Positions 1,433 to 33,867 of a stretch of 36,417 nucleotides of DNA are shown in pieces. The number at the start of each line of letters is the position of its first letter. Within the stretch, counting starts at the first letter, position 1. The stretch comes from a virus: positions 1 through 36,417 of the IMG/VR virus record IMGVR_UViG_3300024518_002530, one strand, 5' to 3'. The position numbers were made by a program, and so were the translations under genes. A model generated the notes under the pieces. It was given only the letters and a program-made list of their open reading frames with translations. It made no database searches and was not told where the DNA came from.

Positions 1433-1869
1433 TCCAGGCTGCTCACTGGCTCGCCAAGATGGCCATCGAGTTCAGGGTCATGCCCGCGGCTGCGGCTTAC
1501 CCCGGCTCGCCTACGTGGCAGCACCTCATGTTCGCTATCGGGGACTTCGAGCGGCGGTACCGCGAGGCGTACCCGGGCGAGGTCGGTGACATCCAGCGGT
1601 ACCAGGGGGTCAAGCTCGACAACGGTGGGGTGCTGCTCAAGGGCGAGCGCGGGATCATCCTTGCCGAGTTGGTGGCGAAGTGCATCGAGATCCCCAAGGC
1701 GTGCCTGGTTGCAATCGAGATCCCGGGCGACGTGCCCCCCGAGCAGGTGCCGATCATTGCTGGCCAGGTCAAGCACATCATCGACGATGACGAGGTGCGT
1801 GTAATGGTTCTCACGAACGGGCAGAAGTTGACGGCGCTGCGTTGTCCTGAGTGCGATCCTGTGGTATAG
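1402..1869 (+). CDS. Hypothetical protein, 155 aa
   Basis: The start is placed at the ATG at 1402 (MGRDFATEDVIQAAHWLAKM), inside the end of the previous gene, because the 40 in-frame codons upstream are an arginine-rich shadow of that gene. The N-terminal half is helical and aromatic. The C-terminal half looks beta-rich (GVKLDNGGVLLKGERGIIL, then VAIEIPGDVPPEQVPII and VRVMVLTNGQKLTALRCPECD). The last residues hold C-P-E-C. No family is recognised. A promoter-like element lies over its last codons, so this is probably the last gene of the first run. Confidence 0.6.
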   Translation: MGRDFATEDVIQAAHWLAKMAIEFRVMPAAAAYPGSPTWQHLMFAIGDFERRYREAYPGEVGDIQRYQGVKLDNGGVLLKGERGIILAELVAKCIEIPKACLVAIEIPGDVPPEQVPIIAGQVKHIIDDDEVRVMVLTNGQKLTALRCPECDPVV

Positions 1870-1870
1870 T
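1842..1870 (+). promoter_or_regulatory. Promoter-like element P1
   Basis: TTGTCC and TATAGT are separated by 17 bases, and the -10 box has a TG one base upstream (TGGTATAGT, an extended -10). It overlaps the end of the 1402 gene and lies about 45 bases before a hairpin terminator at 1916. It is therefore the first of a series of promoter-then-terminator units. The match to sigma-70 consensus is visible; activity is inferred. Confidence 0.5.
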
Positions 1871-1875
1871 CCCGT

Positions 1876-1896
1876 AGCGGGCCAGGGACTCCCGCT
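1876..1896 (+). other. Leader hairpin in the first short unit
   Basis: AGCGGG at 1876 pairs with CCCGCT at 1891 around a nine-base loop. It would be at the very 5' end of an RNA started from P1 and lies before terminator T1, so the P1-T1 transcript would be a short two-hairpin RNA of about 75-80 bases. Confidence 0.4.
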
Positions 1897-1915
1897 GCTG
1901 CTGGTGGATTTCTTG

Positions 1916-1952
1916 GCGCCCCGTGATGTGCTCTCCATTGCGGGGCGCTTTC
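1916..1952 (+). terminator. Terminator-like hairpin T1
   Basis: GCGCCCCG (1916-1923) pairs with CGGGGCGC (1941-1948) around a 17-base loop and is followed by a short TTT run. The U-tract is short, so termination may be partial. The sequence TCTCCATTGCG in and after its loop recurs at T2, so the two hairpins look like copies of one module. Confidence 0.5.
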
Positions 1953-1953
1953 A

Positions 1954-1962
1954 TGTTATGGT
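1954..1962 (+). promoter_or_regulatory. Extended -10 promoter-like element P2
   Basis: TGTTATGGT is an extended -10 box (TG-N-TATGGT) directly after hairpin T1 and 24 bases before the ATG at 1986. No good -35 is seen at the normal distance. It could start a very short leader for the 1986 gene. Confidence 0.35.
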
Positions 1963-1985
1963 GAGCACCTAACCCAGGAGACGCC

Positions 1986-2180
1986 ATGTTCGGTCGATTG
2001 CTAGGAGAGTTGATTTCCGCCCCGTTCAAACTCGCTCAGGTGCCCACCAAGATCCTCAAGGCTGTGGATGAGGCAACTCTGGACACCGGCGCGGCTGAGG
2101 CGCTGGATGACGTCGTGGACGATACCATTGGTGAGGCAGGTCGAAACATCCGCGACAATCTGGCGGACCTGGACGATTAG
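1986..2180 (+). CDS. Small acidic hypothetical protein, 64 aa
   Basis: A CCAGGAG ribosome site lies 7 bases before the ATG. The product begins with an amphipathic, hydrophobic-basic helix (MFGRLLGELISAPFKLAQVPTKILKAV) and then becomes very acidic (DEATLDTGAAEALDDVVDDTIGEAG...). It has no signal peptide. It stands alone between hairpin T1 and the next promoter-like element, with its own possible promoter. Its place in the control region makes a regulatory or early role possible, but no family is recognised. Confidence 0.65.
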   Translation: MFGRLLGELISAPFKLAQVPTKILKAVDEATLDTGAAEALDDVVDDTIGEAGRNIRDNLADLDD

Positions 2181-2201
2181 GTAGCGCACTGGGGCCGGAA
2201 A

Positions 2202-2210
2202 TGGTATGGT
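2202..2210 (+). promoter_or_regulatory. Extended -10 promoter-like element P3
   Basis: TGGTATGGT is an extended -10 box set in GGCCGGAAATGGTATGGT, which is nearly the same as the context of the strong promoter P4 at 2342-2369. The -35 region (around TAGCGC) is poor. It is followed within 35 bases by hairpin T2, so an RNA from it would be only about 55 bases long. Confidence 0.35.
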
Positions 2211-2243
2211 GTGCCCCTGGTCTTACCGGACCGGATCTCCATT

Positions 2244-2273
2244 GCGTCCCCTGTTGTGGCAGGGGGCGCTTTC
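2244..2273 (+). terminator. Intrinsic terminator-like hairpin T2
   Basis: GCGTCCCCTG (2244-2253) pairs with CAGGGGGCGC (2260-2269), ten pairs with one G-U, around the loop TTGTGG, followed by TTTC. The stem is strong and the T-run short. The flanks (TCTCCATTGCG before, GGGGCGCTTTCA at the 3' arm) match those of T1. Confidence 0.6.
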
Positions 2274-2299
2274 ACAATCAGGGGGAGAACGTCTCTCCC

Positions 2300-2343
2300 A
2301 GCCCCCGCGCGATTCTAGCCGAGTTCGTGGGGGCTTCTTTGTT
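2300..2343 (+). terminator. Intrinsic terminator T3
   Basis: AGCCCCCGCG (2300-2309) pairs with CGTGGGGGCT (2326-2335) with one G-U pair and a 16-base loop, followed by TCTTTGTT. Its T-tract runs straight into the -35 box of promoter P4, so it would insulate P4 from upstream transcription. Confidence 0.65.
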
Positions 2344-2369
2344 GACAAAGGGCCCGGAAATGGTATGAT
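2342..2369 (+). promoter_or_regulatory. Strong sigma-70-type promoter P4
   Basis: A perfect TTGACA (2342-2347), a 16-base spacer and TATGAT (2364-2369) with an extended TG make this the best promoter in the window. No plausible gene begins behind it before terminator T4 at 2518, so it appears to drive a non-coding RNA of about 185 bases, or read through into the structural operon. Confidence 0.75.
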
Positions 2370-2375
2370 CCCCCC

Positions 2376-2560
2376 GTGCCTTGTTGGCACACCGTCCCCC
2401 GCAATCCATTAGTCCGGTCGCCGGGGGGCACTTGTAAACTTGGTGGACTGTGACATCCGATTTCGCATAGGTGGATGGTGCCCTGCGAATGCCCATCTAG
2501 TCGCGTTACATCAAGTAAACCCCCTCCCCCAGTCGACTTCGGGGGGAGGGGGTTTTTTTA
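2376..2560 (+). ncRNA. Candidate small RNA between P4 and T4
   Basis: This stretch lies between a consensus promoter and a strong intrinsic terminator and has no credible gene. It can fold: GTGCC-TTGTT-GGCAC right at the 5' end, and TTCGCA near 2460 facing TGCGAA near 2486. Open frames crossing it have no ribosome site and run through the terminator. The predicted RNA is about 185 bases; its 5' end is inferred from promoter spacing. It could be a regulatory RNA or an attenuated leader. No known RNA family is recognised. Confidence 0.45.
2518..2560 (+). terminator. Strong intrinsic terminator T4
   Basis: AACCCCCTCCCCC (2518-2530) pairs perfectly with GGGGGAGGGGGTT (2542-2554) around an ATCGACTTC-like loop and is followed by a run of seven T. 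It is the clearest terminator in the window. Promoter P5 begins at the base after its tail. Confidence 0.85.
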
Positions 2561-2589
2561 TTGACGGTGGGGGTCGGACGATTTACTGT
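2561..2589 (+). promoter_or_regulatory. Promoter-like element P5
   Basis: TTGACG (2561-2566), a 17-base spacer and TACTGT (2584-2589) directly follow the T-run of T4. The -35 is good and the -10 fair. The next features downstream are the two competing hairpins at 2705-2758, so P5 would make a leader of about 160 bases that may end at T5. Confidence 0.5.
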
Positions 2590-2595
2590 GTGAGT

Positions 2596-2758
2596 TCGGT
2601 TTTTCAGGATATAGGCACCCGTCGGAATATCGGTCCGGGGGTTCCATACGCAGGCGACCCCGAGCGCACAGGCCATGGTCGAGGCGGATTTCAAATCCGT
2701 ACTCACGGGGATCTCTGTTAGCCCCGTCCGGATTCATGATCCAGGCGGGGCGCTTTTC
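2596..2758 (+). ncRNA. Candidate second small RNA or attenuated leader between P5 and T5
   Basis: No credible gene lies here. The RNA would contain a hairpin GCGGA-TTTCAAA-TCCGT near 2686-2702 and then two hairpins that cannot form together: ACGGGG (2705-2710) with CCCCGT (2722-2727), or GCCCCG (2721-2726) with CGGGGC (2746-2751) followed by TTTT. That is the layout of a transcription attenuator. The trigger, if any, is unknown. Confidence 0.4.
2721..2758 (+). terminator. Terminator T5, part of a possible attenuator
   Basis: GCCCCG (2721-2726) pairs with CGGGGC (2746-2751), and inside this GGAT pairs with ATCC around TCATG; CGCTTTTCG follows. The 3' arm GGGGCGCTTT resembles those of T1 and T2. 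The upstream arm can instead pair with 2705-2710, which would undo the terminator. Confidence 0.55.
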
Positions 2759-2777
2759 GTCTATATATCGATTCCCC

Positions 2778-2806
2778 TTGCTTTCCTTGCATCCCGACGC
2801 TATAGC
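2778..2806 (+). promoter_or_regulatory. Promoter-like element P6 ahead of the structural operon
   Basis: TTGCTT (2778-2783), a 17-base spacer and TATAGC (2801-2806) lie after T5 and about 70 bases before the portal gene. Both boxes match four of six consensus bases. It is a candidate promoter for head and tail genes; read-through from P4 or P5 is the alternative. Confidence 0.4.
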
Positions 2807-2874: not shown

Positions 2875-5244
2875 GTGCCGGTGGGTGGGCGAACATCCCA
2901 CGACTTCATCAAGGAGAAAGCACTCTCCATCGGGGGAGGACTCCCTGGACAGTTCGCCACGTCGTCGAGCATCTCCCAGATGCTCCGACAGAGCACCACC
3001 GAAACGCTCGAACGCCCCTACGTCCAGTCGGCCATCGTCTATGCGTGCATCAACGCACGCGCACGCGCCCTGACGGCGATCCCGATCAAGTACTGGACGG
3101 ACGAGTCGAAGGAAACCCCCGTCACGGACCGGGCGTTCCTCGACCTCATGCGGCGCCCCAATCCGCTGCTATCGGCCCGTAAATTCTGGCGAATCCAGGA
3201 AATCCATTATGGGCTAGCGGGGGGGTCGTTCTGGTTTATGAACGGCAAGGACCTCCAGCCCGTCATGCCGGGCGAGCTCCCCACCGAAATCTGGCCCGTC
3301 CGCGAGGATCTGGTCAAGCCGATCTTCGACAAGGGCAACAAGTCCGGGCTCCCCGACGCGTGGGCGTTCAACTCTGCTACCGGAGCCGAGGTCACGTATC
3401 CGGACCACGCCGTCGCCCACCTGTTCGATCCCGACCCCCACAACCCGCTCAGGGGTGTGGGACCGATGCAGGCCGCGTTCCGTGGGGCAAACGTCTCCTT
3501 CAAGGCCGAGGCGTTTGACGATGCTCTCACGGCCAACGGGGGCCGGATCGGCGGGGTTCTCCAGCACGAGAGCGCGATGCTCGATGAGAAGCAGAGATCG
3601 CAGCTAGAGCAGTCGTTCCACGAGAATCACGAGAAGGCGGTCAACCATAAGAAAACCGCCGTCCTGCCCGCGGGACTGTCGTTCAAGCCCACGGCGTTCA
3701 GTCCGCTCGACATGGACTTTGCGACCATGCGGGAGTGGATGCGGCAACAGTCGATGATGGTCTTCGGTTGCACCAAGCCACTCCTCGGTATCACGGACGA
3801 TGTGAACCGCGCCAACGCCGAGGCTGCACGCCGCGTGTTCTACGAGAACACCATCGTTCCTCAGACGTCCTACTATGAGGACGAATTCGATCGCGCGTTC
3901 ATCTCCGATCTCCGGGGGCCGCTGTCGACTGTGGTCATGGAGTTCGATCTCTCGGCGGTGCCCGCACTGCGGGAGAACATCGATTCCCAGGTCGAGCGGA
4001 TTCTGAAGCTCATGGGTGTCGGTCGCTCGTTCGCCGAGGCTGCCGCTATCGTGGGACTGACTATCGAAGAAGACATTCCCGGCGGTGAGGACAGGTACAT
4101 CTCGAACACGTTGACCGCGATTGCGAACGAAGAGAAGGACGACGAGACCACCGCGAGCCCGCAGGCCAGCCTGAACGGAGCCCAGGTCACGGCGATGGTG
4201 GACATCGTGCAGAAGGTCGCCACGGGTACCCTGCCGAAGTCGTCTGCGGAACAGATGCTCACCACGTCGTTCCCGATTGATCTCAAGCGGGCGAAGGCGA
4301 TCCTGTCCAGCGTGAAGGAAGGATCTGTAGATCCGTTGGCGGTGAAATCGTTGTCGCACTCAGACCGACGCGCGAAAGCCGACGCGTTCGATGAGATGCT
4401 GATTCCCTTCGACAAGAAGATTGCCAAGGGATACGCGCGGGTGATGAAGGATCAGATCCTCGCTCAACGCAGTCGGTTGCGCGATATCGCCAAGGGGAAG
4501 AAGGACAACCCCGTTCCGATAGTCGAGTGGTCGCACCTCTACCGCGAGCGGAACATCTATGGCGAACCCGAGGGTGATGCTGAGTGGACGACGGTTCGCA
4601 CGATCAGCGAGGCCGAACTCGACCGACTGTTCATCGGCAACGAAGAGAAGTGGGGCCGCGAACTGTGGGGTGCGATGGAGGGTGGCATGAAGGAAGCCAT
4701 CAACCGCGCGGCCGAGGATATGGCGGCCGAGCTGGGAACCACGGCATTCCCCACCGCGACCGATCCCGCCATCGTCGACATGCTCAAGGCGAAGAAGATC
4801 CTCATTGTCGAGGGCGCCGAGACCACGCTTGCCGAGCAGATCAAGCGCGCGATTCTGCGGGGGATGACTGACGCTGACGATAGCCTCCCGCTTGCGACGC
4901 GAGTAGCGGAAGCCCTGCAAGACCTGGAGTCCGAGATGCGCGTCATGCTTGACCGGGTAGGCACCCGAGCCGAGATGATCGCACGCACCGAAACAACGTC
5001 GGTTGCCAACGCTGCCCGTGTACGGCAGATGGAAGAGGCCGACGTCGAGAAGCACGATTGGTTGTCGGCGGGAGACGATCTCGTACGGACGCTACCTGTG
5101 AACCATCGCATCGATGGCCAGGTCCGCAACGTCGGCAAGGAGTTCTCAAACGGTCTGCGGTGGCCGGGTGACAGCGAACGCGCAACGAGCGCGGGCGCCG
5201 TCGTCAACTGTCGCTGCACCACTCTCGCGGTAATCGAAGAATGA
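2875..5244 (+). CDS. Portal protein with C-terminal MuF-like head morphogenesis domain, 789 aa
   Basis: The N-terminal half (about residues 30-420) has the features of HK97-family portals: YVQSAIVYACINARARALTA near the start, the RGVGPMQAA region, and a long helical part with TKPLLGITDDVNRANAEAA. Portals form the dodecameric DNA gate at one head vertex. The C-terminal part (about 640-789) is a MuF-like minor head domain: ARTETTSVANAAR, then His744 (HRIDGQ) and the closing NCRC motif at 778-781. The two are usually separate genes; here they are one chain, about twice normal portal length. The frame opens after a stop at 2803 and holds only GTG starts (2875 or 2881) with a weak ribosome site, so the exact start is uncertain. 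It overlaps the protease gene by 4 bases. No terminase precedes it. Confidence 0.9.
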   Translation: MPVGGRTSHDFIKEKALSIGGGLPGQFATSSSISQMLRQSTTETLERPYVQSAIVYACINARARALTAIPIKYWTDESKETPVTDRAFLDLMRRPNPLLSARKFWRIQEIHYGLAGGSFWFMNGKDLQPVMPGELPTEIWPVREDLVKPIFDKGNKSGLPDAWAFNSATGAEVTYPDHAVAHLFDPDPHNPLRGVGPMQAAFRGANVSFKAEAFDDALTANGGRIGGVLQHESAMLDEKQRSQLEQSFHENHEKAVNHKKTAVLPAGLSFKPTAFSPLDMDFATMREWMRQQSMMVFGCTKPLLGITDDVNRANAEAARRVFYENTIVPQTSYYEDEFDRAFISDLRGPLSTVVMEFDLSAVPALRENIDSQVERILKLMGVGRSFAEAAAIVGLTIEEDIPGGEDRYISNTLTAIANEEKDDETTASPQASLNGAQVTAMVDIVQKVATGTLPKSSAEQMLTTSFPIDLKRAKAILSSVKEGSVDPLAVKSLSHSDRRAKADAFDEMLIPFDKKIAKGYARVMKDQILAQRSRLRDIAKGKKDNPVPIVEWSHLYRERNIYGEPEGDAEWTTVRTISEAELDRLFIGNEEKWGRELWGAMEGGMKEAINRAAEDMAAELGTTAFPTATDPAIVDMLKAKKILIVEGAETTLAEQIKRAILRGMTDADDSLPLATRVAEALQDLESEMRVMLDRVGTRAEMIARTETTSVANAARVRQMEEADVEKHDWLSAGDDLVRTLPVNHRIDGQVRNVGKEFSNGLRWPGDSERATSAGAVVNCRCTTLAVIEE

Positions 5245-28913: not shown

Positions 28914-29477
28914 CTATCCCGAAATACGTTCCTGCGTCTGAGCCATGCCCAAACGCTGGACGGTATTGGCTTCACCGGATGCACGGCGACTGCGGTAATA
29001 GCAGTACGCATCCCACAAAGTTGCCCACGGGGCTCCCTCCGGGAAGAACAGGATAGCGACAGCGGGACCGGCACCACGGTTCGGGATAAGGTCGCGAGGC
29101 GCCAAGCGCACGGGCTTCCCATCGAGTTCGTAGTTGGCGGCTTCCTTGCTGACGCCCCTGGTAGAAATCTGTCCCCAGAGGTCAACGACCACTTGAGGAA
29201 CACCGATGGCTACGAAGTCGTCTTCCAGCCCATCCTCGTTCTTGCCGAGGATCTGGGCAACGATTCGTGCGGGGAACCTGCTGTCTACCTCGCGTTCGAT
29301 CTTCTCCGCCACGGCCTGCTTATAGAAAGAGGGCACCGTAGCGTCGAGGATCATTGCCTTGAGGCGTCGAGCATAATACGTCCCGAGCTTCTCAGTGAGG
29401 CATTCTCGGGTAACGAGGTTTGAGCCTTCGCGATTGAGAGCGAGGGCTGCGTTTGTCATGTCGGAAGTGGAAATCAT
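28914..29477 (-). CDS. Hypothetical protein downstream of ParB-like gene, 187 aa
   Basis: This soluble protein of 187 residues overlaps the ParB-like gene by 4 bases and so is probably translated with it. The N-terminal half is helical and charged (CLTEKLGTYYARRLKAMILDATVPSFYKQAVAEKIEREVDSRFP). The middle has LDGKPVRLAPRDLIPNRGAGPAVAILFFPEGAPW, and the end is aromatic then basic. No known motif is visible. A role beside the ParB-like protein, for example in DNA handling, is a guess from context. Confidence 0.65.
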   Translation of the reverse strand: MISTSDMTNAALALNREGSNLVTRECLTEKLGTYYARRLKAMILDATVPSFYKQAVAEKIEREVDSRFPARIVAQILGKNEDGLEDDFVAIGVPQVVVDLWGQISTRGVSKEAANYELDGKPVRLAPRDLIPNRGAGPAVAILFFPEGAPWATLWDAYCYYRSRRASGEANTVQRLGMAQTQERISG

Positions 29478-30709
29478 AGGTCGGTTTTCTCCATACGTTG
29501 ATTTCCGATTTGTTTGATCTCTCTTGAGGGTAGGCCAATGGACTGCAACTCCCTGTCTCCAAGGAAGTCCGTGTTAGCCAGCGCCACGGAGATCGAAGTA
29601 GCGCGTTCCGCCAAACAGTCGAGGTCGGCAACGAGCCGATCCCGGACGTTATCGCGGAGGTTCTCACTGTACTCACTGACGCGGAGTAGTTTCTCCACGG
29701 TGTCCGCGTGCGGGCCGTTCGCGGTTAGCATCTTCCCGAGCTTCTCAGACAACTCGATAGCGAGCTTGTTGATGTCGGGGGGTTGCTGCCGGATCCAGTG
29801 CTTGCCTCGGATGGAGGGCGCGAGGATCTGCTTCTCCGCTTGACGGCGAGCGTGGCGGTAGTCTGGTTTGTCGGAGCGGAGGTTTTCGGCCACGACGTTG
29901 GCGGCCTTCTTCGCGTCTCGTTTCGCGGCGGCGGGGGCGGCCTTCTTGATCTTGGCGGCCTCTTCCTTGAGGGCGGGAGATTTCACCGCGGCTTTCTCTG
30001 CGGCTACCGCTGACTGCTTCCATTCGCGGCGGGCCATCTCGGCGGCGCGGATAACCTCCTCAGCCGATGCGTACGAGACGATGCCCTCAAACGCGGAGGG
30101 GTCCAACGCTTCGTCCCGAATGAGGCGGACGGCGCGGAAGGCGAGGGCGAGCCTCCCTGCTCCTGCGCGGTGGTCGCCTGCACTTTCCGTCCACGCAGTA
30201 CCAAGGAATTTTCCAATAGAGAGTGGGGTTATGATTCTCGGACGGGGGGGGGAGCCACCGTCTAGTACAATTCCCTTACTGCGGTGTTGCGCCGGGGCAG
30301 CAGGCAGGTCAATCTCCCCTCTCTCCGCCGCCTCGATAATGGACTGCACCCCCTCCAACAGCACCCGGAAGTCCCGCTTCCAGTCGTCCATGTTTTCCGC
30401 CATCATCATGCGGATCATGGTCTGATCGTCCAGCGGCTTCACTGGCAGATCGAATACGTCGGTGGGCTTGCAGACTCCTTTGATTCCTTTACCGCCGAAG
30501 TGTGCTCCAATCGCCGCTACCATACGGTGGTGCCCGTATGCAATCTCGTATGCGCCGCGCTCGGTGGGGCTCTTGCGGCAAACGATGTTCTCCCAGAATC
30601 CGGTGTCCTTGATGGACGATTGAAGGGCGAGCACCTTCTCCGGGTTGATGGGGTAAGCCTCCATCCGGCGATACGGATTCGGACGGAGATCAGCCAGTTT
30701 GATCTTCAT
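29474..30709 (-). CDS. ParB/Srx-fold protein, 411 aa
   Basis: The N-terminus has the ParB/sulfiredoxin-fold pattern: a LADLRPNPYR opening (RPNPYR at 9-14), ALQSSIKDTGFWENIV, and the signature YGHHR at 58-62, followed by MMMAENMDDWKR. In chromosomal ParB this fold binds and cuts CTP; in phages related proteins are called ParB-like nucleases. Residues about 170-330 are Ala/Lys/Glu/Arg-rich helices (AAVKSPALKEEAAKIKKAAPAAAKRDAKKAANVV), probably a flexible DNA- or partner-binding part. A strong AGGAG precedes the ATG, and it has its own promoter-like element and inverted repeat, unlike its neighbours. Confidence 0.8.
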   Translation of the reverse strand: MKIKLADLRPNPYRRMEAYPINPEKVLALQSSIKDTGFWENIVCRKSPTERGAYEIAYGHHRMVAAIGAHFGGKGIKGVCKPTDVFDLPVKPLDDQTMIRMMMAENMDDWKRDFRVLLEGVQSIIEAAERGEIDLPAAPAQHRSKGIVLDGGSPPRPRIITPLSIGKFLGTAWTESAGDHRAGAGRLALAFRAVRLIRDEALDPSAFEGIVSYASAEEVIRAAEMARREWKQSAVAAEKAAVKSPALKEEAAKIKKAAPAAAKRDAKKAANVVAENLRSDKPDYRHARRQAEKQILAPSIRGKHWIRQQPPDINKLAIELSEKLGKMLTANGPHADTVEKLLRVSEYSENLRDNVRDRLVADLDCLAERATSISVALANTDFLGDRELQSIGLPSREIKQIGNQRMEKTDL

Positions 30710-30720
30710 GGGGTTCTCCT

Positions 30721-30745
30721 TTCGGGTTGTGAACTGGAACCCGAA
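30721..30745 (-). promoter_or_regulatory. Inverted repeat, possible operator or leader hairpin of the ParB-like gene
   Basis: TTCGGGTT (30721-30728) and AACCCGAA (30738-30745) form a perfect 8-base inverted repeat around 9 bases. It begins at the edge of the promoter's -10 box, covers the likely start point and ends just before the AGGAG site. It could be a DNA operator (autoregulation by the ParB-like protein is attractive) or an mRNA 5' hairpin. Confidence 0.5.
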
Positions 30746-30773
30746 TCCTACTCACCCCACCCCCCACAATCAA
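30745..30773 (-). promoter_or_regulatory. Promoter-like element for the ParB-like gene
   Basis: On the minus strand TTGATT and TAGGAT are 17 bases apart; each matches consensus at four of six positions. It lies in the 67-base gap between the Maf-like gene's stop and the ParB-like gene. It is the only minus-strand promoter candidate seen in the window. Confidence 0.45.
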
Positions 30774-30776
30774 GTG

Positions 30777-32210
30777 CTATCCAATCGCCTCCACCAACGG
30801 CCCCCGAAAAAACCCAATCGACCGTTGCAACAGGTGCATCATCCGCCGAACCCCCATCGGGTCCCCGTTCGCGGACGCAACCTGCGATTCGATGAATTCG
30901 GATTGAGAGTAGAGGGCGAATATCGGCATGCTGTTGGTTAGCTTGCTCAACATTTCCTCATGATGTTTCACATCATCGTTTGCCCGCGTCCCATTCACAA
31001 TCTCCTCGTGCATCTTCAACGCGGCGGACACGTGGAATTCGCAGGGGGTCATCGCGCGGAGCATCGATTGTAGGTGCTTTCTTAGCATCCCCCATCTTTT
31101 ATTGGCATCGAAGTCCACGGTCAGCGATTTATCGAACGGCTCGCCGAACTCAACTGAAGATAGCGGGATGTGCTCCATCCCCTGAATGTACGCCCCGCCC
31201 TCGGTCGCGTTCACCATCCTGAACTCGGTATTCTTCTCCGCCATCGCGGTGAACCAAACCAGGAACGCCTGGAAGCTCTGCGACGTGGCAACCTGGCCAC
31301 CGTGGTATCCGGGGACAACTACGCCGCGTTGGTTTTGGGTGGTTGGTTTCCCGTCACTGAGTACGTGGAACGATCCATCGGGCAACGCACCGACCGTTCG
31401 GTCCCCATCCTCGCTCTCCGCCGCGTAATACTTCCCATCGGTGAGGGCGAGGTCCTGGCCCACCAGAATGATCGGGTTGCATCCCATCTTCATCGCCATC
31501 GACAGGGCCGAGCACGACACCGACCCGCCCGTAGGCAGCGCCGCGTCCTCCTTCAGCCCACCGTACAACCACGCGTCGGCGCGTCCGTTACCCGCGAACG
31601 TGAACGCCTGCTCGCACGGGAGATCGAAGTAATCGTGGCGCACCATCGCGGCGAGGGCGAGCCCCTTGAGATCGCCGACGATTCGGTGTGCGTGTTTCCC
31701 CGGGTCGGCAGCCATCGTGATGTCTGGCGTGATGCCCACGGAATGCAGCGCGGTCAGCGAGTGCGTGCCCGCGATGATGACCACTCTGTCCGCAAGCGCG
31801 GGGAGTTGCGCCAGGTTCTTGGACAACGACGGACCAGGGCTGACGATGATCGCGGGCTTGCCCTTGAATCTGTCCACGTAATGCTCAATCGACGGGACGC
31901 TAGCGATGGAGCGTGCGTTCTCTAGCCCCTGAATCACCCACGTTTTCCCGAACCTGTCCGTGGTCTTGAGCTGCATGTACTTCGCGCCCAACCCGTCGGC
32001 CATGCGTAACGCGATCTGAGCTCGGTCATCCTGCGACACGTCCGACTGAGGGAAGTAGACCCACCACGGCATCTCCCCCGGTTGCAACAGGGACCATGCC
32101 AGCATGTCGGGATCTGTTTCATATTGATGGACAAACCTCCCCTTGTGCGGTTCGGTGTTGCCCACGCAGATGAAGTAGTCGCGGTCGAGGTTTAGTTGTA
32201 GTTGGTTCAT
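30777..32210 (-). CDS. Maf/DUF115-like (MAF_flag10) glycosyltransferase-family protein, 477 aa
   Basis: The start is the ATG at 32210, which overlaps the CmcI-like gene's stop. The middle matches the DUF115/Maf family: KPAIIVSPGPSLSKNL (GPS at 125-128), THSLTALHSVGITPDITMAADP (TPD at 161-163), TGGSVSCSALSMAMKMGCNPIILVGQDLALTDGKYY (GGSVS at 228-232, GQDLA at 251-255). Cellular Maf proteins attach nonulosonic acids such as pseudaminic acid to flagellin; a relative with the same fold is the archaeal pterin kinase MptE. The N-terminal 115 residues are less conserved. Beside a CmcI-like and a methyltransferase gene, surface-sugar or virion modification is the best guess. Confidence 0.8.
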   Translation of the reverse strand: MNQLQLNLDRDYFICVGNTEPHKGRFVHQYETDPDMLAWSLLQPGEMPWWVYFPQSDVSQDDRAQIALRMADGLGAKYMQLKTTDRFGKTWVIQGLENARSIASVPSIEHYVDRFKGKPAIIVSPGPSLSKNLAQLPALADRVVIIAGTHSLTALHSVGITPDITMAADPGKHAHRIVGDLKGLALAAMVRHDYFDLPCEQAFTFAGNGRADAWLYGGLKEDAALPTGGSVSCSALSMAMKMGCNPIILVGQDLALTDGKYYAAESEDGDRTVGALPDGSFHVLSDGKPTTQNQRGVVVPGYHGGQVATSQSFQAFLVWFTAMAEKNTEFRMVNATEGGAYIQGMEHIPLSSVEFGEPFDKSLTVDFDANKRWGMLRKHLQSMLRAMTPCEFHVSAALKMHEEIVNGTRANDDVKHHEEMLSKLTNSMPIFALYSQSEFIESQVASANGDPMGVRRMMHLLQRSIGFFRGPLVEAIG

Positions 32211-32890
32211 CGGCGACGCAGCCATCCGCCCTGGTTGCACGTGAGGAACCTGGGCTCCGATTCGCGCGAGATTTCGAACTCCGGATTCTCAGGCAACCAT
32301 CGAACGATTGATTCCCGCGGCCCGCACCCGTGGTACACCCCGGCATGTCCCGGCACGTCTTCGACGGTGGTGTCTTCGATCACCATGAAGTGCCCCGACT
32401 GTACGAGATCCGAGTACGCTTCCATCTCGTCGAGAACGTGGGAGCACGAGTGGTCTCCGTCGAGCGAGACCAAGCATGATCGTCCGTTGACCTCATCGTG
32501 AACAGCTCTCACAATGTCGGGGTCCGTAGAACTTCCGGTGAGTTGGGTCCAATTGGGGTCAGGCTTCGTGGTCTGGTACCAATCGAGGCTCGCCGTGATG
32601 ACGCACGGGTTGATTCCGTTTAGCTCCTGCATGTGTCGGAAGAACAACGCCGAGCCCCCGTACGCGCCACCGGTTTCGAAGATCACTTCGGGGCGTGTGT
32701 CGAATATGATTTCCTGATAGCGCAGGAGATCGTCCTCAGGTTTCCGCAAGGGAATTCCGAACCACATCAGCGGTTCTTTCTTTCGCCATGTCCAATGATC
32801 CACTCGGATCGCCCCCACTTCTTCGGACCGTTCCGGCGTGGTGGGGGGATAATCGGGGTACTTGGGGTCGTGGACGAATACATGATTCAT
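32207..32890 (-). CDS. CmcI/cephalosporin hydroxylase-like family protein, 227 aa
   Basis: The family signature is clear: WFGIPLRKPEDDLLRYQEIIF, then FETGGAYGGSALFF (72-84), LDGDHSCSHVLDEMEAY (143-159) and MVIEDT (169-174). Despite the name, these are Rossmann-fold, SAM-methyltransferase-like proteins often found in sugar or polysaccharide gene clusters. The glycine-rich loop and acidic DGDH segment are intact. It overlaps both neighbours by 4 bases, which ties it to the methyltransferase and Maf-like genes as one translated unit. Confidence 0.82.
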   Translation of the reverse strand: MNHVFVHDPKYPDYPPTTPERSEEVGAIRVDHWTWRKKEPLMWFGIPLRKPEDDLLRYQEIIFDTRPEVIFETGGAYGGSALFFRHMQELNGINPCVITASLDWYQTTKPDPNWTQLTGSSTDPDIVRAVHDEVNGRSCLVSLDGDHSCSHVLDEMEAYSDLVQSGHFMVIEDTTVEDVPGHAGVYHGCGPRESIVRWLPENPEFEISRESEPRFLTCNQGGWLRRR

Positions 32891-33867
32891 GGGCGGGTTC
32901 CAAAAAACAGGGCAGACGGGCCGCTGTAGGCTGTGTGATAGGTTGAGAGTCCGAAGTCACTGGGTTCCCACGGACCGAGATCGTTTTCGATCACGGTAGG
33001 GTAGCCAATGAATTCGGGGTGATATCCCGCACGTTCCATTAGGTTCGCGACGTCATGCGGTTGGAAGTCGTGGATGTGGGCGGGACACTGCGCGCCGCGG
33101 ATAGGGTAGAACCGTGCGTCAGGCACGGACACGAACACCCGGTGGGTGGTCAGTCCGCACAGGAATTCTTGCGGCTGAGGGATGTGTTCGAGGAACTCAA
33201 TCAACGTTGCCGCTGGGTAGTAGTCGGGCGCTTTCGATTGAAACGATGCGCCGCGGAACGTCTGCCGATTGTACTCCAAGATGGGCTCATTGATGTCTAC
33301 CCCAACGACGTCGGGGCAATACTGCGCGAGCAGCGCCGTTCCCCAACCGAGTCCGCATCCGATATCCACCACGCGCACCCCCTGGAACCGTTCAAGGGCC
33401 GCGCCGTATATGGCCGATCGCTCTACTTGGATGGGGTACTTACGTTGGAACCCGTCCCCAGAGAAATCCCCAGGTGGGGGGCTCTCGGCCATGAGTGACC
33501 GGATCGTATCTAGTCGGGCGTTGAACTGGTCTCGGCCGGTCATCGGGATCGGTTCAACCTCAACCCGAGGGGGGAGAGATAGATTACGGTTTGACCACAC
33601 ATCAACAGCGGTTATTTCTGCTGCGATGATCTCCGCAGTACAGACAAGGTTTGCGTTGAACCCACACCATGGGAACACGCACTCATCGAAATCCCATCCC
33701 ATCTCTTCGGGTTCAAAGTATTCCGAATCAAGAACAATCGTCTCCCCCTTGGGGCGGTACGTCTGTTTCTTGAGCACAACCCACGTGGGGTCAGCGGTTC
33801 GGTACATACGTTCCAGGCGCATCACCACGTCACGGTTCCCCGCGCAGAGGACTGCTATCTTTTTCAT
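32887..33867 (-). CDS. Class I SAM-dependent methyltransferase with extra N-terminal domain, 326 aa
   Basis: Residues about 160-260 form a standard SAM-binding domain: VVDIGCGLGWGTALL (motif I, 166-180), VVGVDINEP with Asp191, and EFLEHIPQP at 224-232. The first 130 or so residues begin with a strand-loop (KKIAVLCAGNRDVVMRLERM) and have CVFPWCGFNANLVCTAEII, perhaps a separate nucleotide- or sugar-binding fold. The substrate is unknown; the overlap with the CmcI-like gene suggests a sugar or small acceptor. A GGGGGG purine run in a hairpin lies a few bases before its ATG. Confidence 0.8.
   Translation of the reverse strand: MKKIAVLCAGNRDVVMRLERMYRTADPTWVVLKKQTYRPKGETIVLDSEYFEPEEMGWDFDECVFPWCGFNANLVCTAEIIAAEITAVDVWSNRNLSLPPRVEVEPIPMTGRDQFNARLDTIRSLMAESPPPGDFSGDGFQRKYPIQVERSAIYGAALERFQGVRVVDIGCGLGWGTALLAQYCPDVVGVDINEPILEYNRQTFRGASFQSKAPDYYPAATLIEFLEHIPQPQEFLCGLTTHRVFVSVPDARFYPIRGAQCPAHIHDFQPHDVANLMERAGYHPEFIGYPTVIENDLGPWEPSDFGLSTYHTAYSGPSALFFGTRP

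Follow-up and report, generated by a model that had tools for sequence, protein, structure and literature searches.

An array of short putative transcription units between a conserved gene and the portal gene of a virus

In lambdoid phages, polymerase that has been antiterminated passes the terminators of morons, and the Q-binding element lies in the promoter spacer. This element is on the DNA, beside a promoter-proximal pause (PMC7171158). In its first definition a moron is a whole transcription unit that a phage genome has gained, and ORFs 3-5 of phage SPP1 are counted among morons (PMC6316719). The put RNA of phage HK022, ~70 nt long and with two stems, lets polymerase pass terminators (PMC9378689), and conAn of plasmid pLS20 has two parts, a protein and an RNA, encoded where an operon begins (PMC8955417). 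With these systems we compare an array of promoter-like boxes and hairpins that lies between a gene of 155 codons and the portal gene of a virus, ahead of the capsid genes. Most likely the array represents a known type of accessory cargo and not a new control system.

The window, that is, the whole stretch of DNA analysed, is IMG/VR virus record IMGVR_UViG_3300024518_002530 (36,417 bases). Its head and tail operon extends from 2875 onward and includes portal, protease-like, capsid, head-tail adaptor, tape measure and tail fibre J genes; the portal gene (2875-5244, + strand), the first gene of this structural run, has a Mu F-like C-terminal part. The gene on the other side of the array (155 codons, 1402-1869, + strand) is 43% identical to positions 991-1536 of the nearest relative found, the viral contig L003 (portal 57% and capsid 52% identical), where it is also adjacent to the portal gene, and it serves as the synteny anchor. 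The record is probably incomplete, with a terminase expected to the left of it; a search of the 36,417-base window for a relative of the L003 terminase gene gave none. Neither at 2805-2875 in the window nor at 1646-1835 in L003 is there a clear ATG with a ribosome site for the portal gene. Since both portal frames are open upstream of the first ATG, GTG or TTG and have ATC GAG CGA in common, in frame, the true portal start may be a rare codon. Far from the array, MptE-like, CmcI/rhamnosyl O-methyltransferase-like and further methyltransferase genes follow one another at 30777-33867 (- strand), perhaps for surface modification.

Promoters were scored on both strands with a sigma70 matrix; that sigma70 rules apply in the host is an assumption. 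As a check on the scan, the fourth-ranked site lies on the - strand, immediately ahead of the ParB-like gene (29474-30750), where a promoter is expected; this site, directly upstream of 30750, is among the best promoter-like sites of the window. The initial annotation had pointed to four -10 boxes of the extended TG-N-TATRRT form, and these prove to be the only four in the window: a scan of both strands (36,417 bases) finds TGNTATRRT four times (1.17 expected from shuffles), at 1862, 1954, 2202 and 2361, each time on the + strand and all within 508 bases. The chance that four random sites fall on one strand within 508 nt is ~1e-6.

Six promoters had been proposed, all on the + strand, and we regard that number as an overcount. 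By their sequences, P1 and P4 are strong candidates. P4 (2342-2369, TTGACA-16-TATGAT with extended TGG) ranks first in the window, and P1 (1842-1870, TTGTCC-17-TATAGT, also with extended TGG), which overlaps the stop of the upstream gene, ranks second. P2 and P3 appear plausible. P2 (1954-1962) has the extended -10 box TGTTATGGT 24 nt before the 64-codon frame and no good -35 box (rank 75), and P3 (2191-2210) has the extended -10 box TGGTATGGT, in a context common to P4, without a -35 box. P5 (2561-2589, TTGACG-17-TACTGT, rank 12) is mediocre and P6 (2778-2806, TTGCTT-17-TATAGC, rank 106) is weak, and by sequence neither can be told from background; the matrix scores of both P2 and P6 are in the background range. 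Two further candidate features were rejected. P1, P3, P4 and the relatives had seemed to share a 5'-terminal hairpin at each promoter's +1, but its stability does not exceed that found at random positions in the GC-rich window. The second feature was CCGGAAATGGTATGRT as a wider late-promoter motif. Not one of its 19 exact matches in viral contigs has a recognisable promoter setting; these look protein-coding, because open frames of 129-806 codons lie over them and most share a recurring coding context.

All five proposed hairpins, T1-T5, were recovered at their places on the + strand when both strands of the window were scanned by energy and T run. T3 (2300-2335, TCTTTGTT) and T4 (2517-2555, followed by TTTTATT) are good intrinsic terminators, and T4 ranks second in the whole window. 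The other three have short T runs: T1 (1915-1949) has 14 pairs and TTCATGTTAT, only TTTC; T2 (2244-2269), with flanks common to T1, likewise has only TTTC; and T5 (2721-2751) is followed by GCTTTTCG, with GCTTTTC. This 1 kb holds 5 of the best 22 hairpins on both strands, although hairpins are common at 60% GC. Another hairpin, without a T run, lies between T2 and T3 (2280-2299, + strand; fold of 2210-2342, z -4.9), so that T2-T3 forms three consecutive hairpins (z -6.2); from P3 to T2 there are two hairpins in ~55 nt. Stacked hairpins near a transcript start (P3, T2, T3) recall the put RNA of HK022 (PMC9378689); the likeness is one of layout only and, unlike put, the array has T runs after two of these three hairpins.

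The units had also been described as duplicated. Short patches of similarity exist: GGSCCGGAAATGGTATGRT is common to P3 and P4 (shuffle p 0.003), within a shared stretch of 19 bases around the -10 box, and T1 and T2 share the flanks TCTCCATTGC...GGGGCGCTTTCA with a 17-nt gap between them (p 0.007). Each p is below 0.01, but 15 comparisons were made, and thus the likeness is moderate evidence. Duplication of whole units is not supported, as none of the 15 pairs compared is similar over unit length. The composite T1/T2 pattern has no match in viral contigs. The 16-mer of P3 and P4 recurs in contigs L021-L039, where most occurrences belong to a single family of viral coding sequences with the context ELKELFAGNGMVGFVAKERVDGKL, a codon coincidence.

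A single gene was reported inside the array, and by codon usage no other frame on either strand is coding-like in 2181-2875. This gene (1986-2180, + strand, 64 codons) has an AGGAG ribosome site and a strong coding character, with codon usage resembling that of the structural genes (0.44, against 0.35 +/- 0.15 for these). Its product is acidic, predicted to be helical and of no known family; no relatives were found in viral contigs, phages, PHROGs or NCBIfam. A one-sequence AlphaFold model is likewise helical and of low confidence (mean pLDDT 67), too poor to serve as a search query. The gene has a candidate promoter before it (TGTTATGGT at 1954, without a -35 box) and T2 and T3 after it.

The array had been suggested to be a small-RNA cassette. 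The sequence supports an arrangement in short units of promoter and terminator, and one of these units does look like a small-RNA gene. From P4 to T4 (2376-2556, + strand) a non-coding RNA of ~180 nt is predicted; the stretch holds no coding frame, and against shuffled sequence its fold has a z of -4.2 to -4.4 with the terminator, much better than the shuffles, and a moderate -2.1 without it (background of 141-nt windows: mean z -0.3, sd 1.3). A role as a decoy for host RNA polymerase, also raised, found no support: no match of meaningful score was obtained to 6S or any other family in Rfam, which, phage pRNA included, gave only three sub-threshold, chance-level matches (E up to 5). Antisense pairing of the P4 RNA with + strand transcripts of the window does not reach 11 nt anywhere; there is one 13-nt match to a - strand transcript. 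No tRNA or tmRNA was found in the region with ARAGORN or Rfam. At 2684-2700, GCGGATTTCAAATCCGT resembles the anticodon arm of a tRNA (anticodon UCA), and the hairpin after it occupies the place of a long variable arm.

A DNA search of cultured phages gave no matches, protein matches to cultured phages reach only 20-30%, and no relatives were found by way of the 64-residue protein, a single-sequence portal query or genome contigs. A scan of viral contigs with the capsid protein returned L003 (52%), L005 (42%) and a group at ~35%. In L003 the order is terminase, a gene for 108 residues, the homologue of the 155-codon gene, and portal. Thus the flanking genes are the same, and in this one relative compared the array is missing at the same junction. 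Between the homologue and portal lie 110 to 300 bases, a range that reflects the uncertain start of portal; this gap holds one terminator-like hairpin (1556-1570, GTTTTTG) and has no high-scoring promoter, no extended -10 boxes, no gene for the 64-residue protein and no P4-T4 RNA. The array is therefore lineage-specific and not a conserved leader of the group. The initial annotation had called it a head-operon leader, open to doubt if related phages lacked boxes and hairpins alike; the array does stand ahead of the portal operon, and L003, without boxes and with one hairpin, weakens that description.

In the more distant L007, L008 and L013, terminase is directly upstream of portal, and in the gap of ~0.2-0.3 kb there are a single TGCTACAGT box and hairpins that lack T runs. 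The box is only suggestive, since the L008 record (38 kb) has three of this type in all; the L007-type records examined differ little from each other. With loose gap costs and many gaps, the short L003 leader aligns to 2774-2897 of the window, the part that contains P6, better than 99.4% of control stretches do; at stricter gap costs the similarity is not significant. The gapped alignment gives a hint that only the last ~100 bases before portal are old leader and that the remainder was added. Similarity between the P1 region and the end of the L003 gene is borderline (p 0.055 by shuffles) and was not relied on.

The reading that fits best is that compact, insulated transcription units were inserted ahead of portal in the manner of a moron, and we give it a probability of about one half. 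In its favour are the short gaps before portal in L003, L007, L008 and L013 and a clustering of the boxes far greater than expected by chance. About 0.9 kb of lineage-specific DNA (roughly 1870-2770) would have been added between the conserved upstream gene and the old, short portal leader. P2, or P1 reading through T1, would yield a short mRNA, ending at T2/T3, that encodes the 64-residue protein, and P4 a non-coding RNA of ~180 nt that ends at T4; P3, without a -35 box, may be a weak or remnant copy. Terminators bracket both the 64-codon gene and the P4 RNA, and they would keep the units from driving the capsid genes and block upstream transcription from entering the units; host polymerase could transcribe these without modification, whatever the stage. 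We infer that the promoters fire, that the hairpins terminate and that the units are autonomous, and the same is true of any function of the protein or RNA. The elements themselves, the coding character of the 64-codon gene and the lack of the array in L003 between the same neighbours are established.

As in phage morons, a short gene with its own box and terminator is missing from a relative with the same neighbours and lies at a portal-gene junction; in SPP1, ORFs 3-5 lie between terminase and portal. Unlike these, the array consists of several tandem units, at least one apparently non-coding, and their autonomous expression is only predicted. A compositional difference, common in morons and not obligatory, is not seen (GC 0.59, against 0.60-0.62 around the array), nor was a second copy of the cassette found elsewhere, as a mobile moron might show. 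With one close relative found, the alternative may be that L003 lost the array and the window did not gain it. At the place of the conserved gene's upstream neighbour, L003 has a different gene, and the insertion-rich stretch may thus begin further left. Five small ORFs without a known family lie at 67-1429, upstream of the 155-codon gene, and the ORF at 674-1093 resembles a secreted lipoprotein.

Pure insertion leaves unexplained, and this counts against it, that no strong promoter follows T4; transcription of the portal operon would have to rely on P5 or P6, on an activator or on read-through. A leader like that of the lambda late operon (pR'-tR') would supply the last of these: P4, and P1, would be constitutive, their short RNAs would stop at T4 and T1, respectively, and late in infection a phage antiterminator loaded near the promoter would allow read-through into the portal operon. 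At the sequence level the likeness consists of the strongest promoter of the window, a predicted RNA of ~180 nt (similar in length to the lambda late leader) and then one of the strongest terminators, directly before the late genes; with nothing good between T4 and portal, this explanation remains a serious rival. The motif shared by P3 and P4 is also in the spacer just upstream of the -10 box, about where a Q-type binding element would sit, although P1 and P2 are without it. Q and the pause element, however, are not seen. A search for Q- or put-like signals, proposed earlier, gave no put-like homology and, by a crude pattern test (NANNAT or TANNNT), no -10-like sigma-dependent pause in the first 46 nt of P1-P4, and no Q-family match was found among the proteins searched, which cover part of the ORFs of a fragment record. 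Further differences from lambda are the additional promoter-terminator pairs and the lack of conservation in L003, which has neither P4 nor T4. On balance we find such a leader possible but somewhat unlikely; it and a moron-like insertion are not mutually exclusive.

A plain operon boundary, in which the terminators end upstream transcripts, the weak P5 or P6 or an unrecognised late promoter starts the structural operon, and most of the P1-P4 boxes are remnants or of minor importance, would fit the gaps before portal in L003 and the L007-type records, which also hold hairpins and a possible -10 box, and the position of P6, within sequence that L003 may have in common with the window. It leaves unaccounted for that P4 and P1 are so close to consensus and that all four extended -10 boxes are clustered, and we regard it as distinctly improbable. 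Much further down the scale is processive antitermination of the conAn kind (PMC8955417), in which the 64-residue protein and the structured P4 RNA would modify polymerase for the structural operon. The likeness is one of layout only, a small protein gene and a structured RNA being adjacent at the head of a long operon, and unlike in conAn the P4 RNA ends in a terminator, T4, that it would need to read through, and the array is missing in L003; we give this explanation hardly any weight. That the protein and the P4 RNA are a two-part, phage-encoded antitermination device gating the structural operon through the stacked T1-T5 seems very improbable.

If antitermination of either kind were true, the array would be a control region for a phage group of which no cultured member was found in this analysis. 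If instead the moron-like units are transcribed as predicted, the phage would carry, at the start of its capsid operon, cargo in the form of very short units, each with its own terminator and one non-coding. Since gene callers overlook non-coding morons, these rarely receive an annotation.
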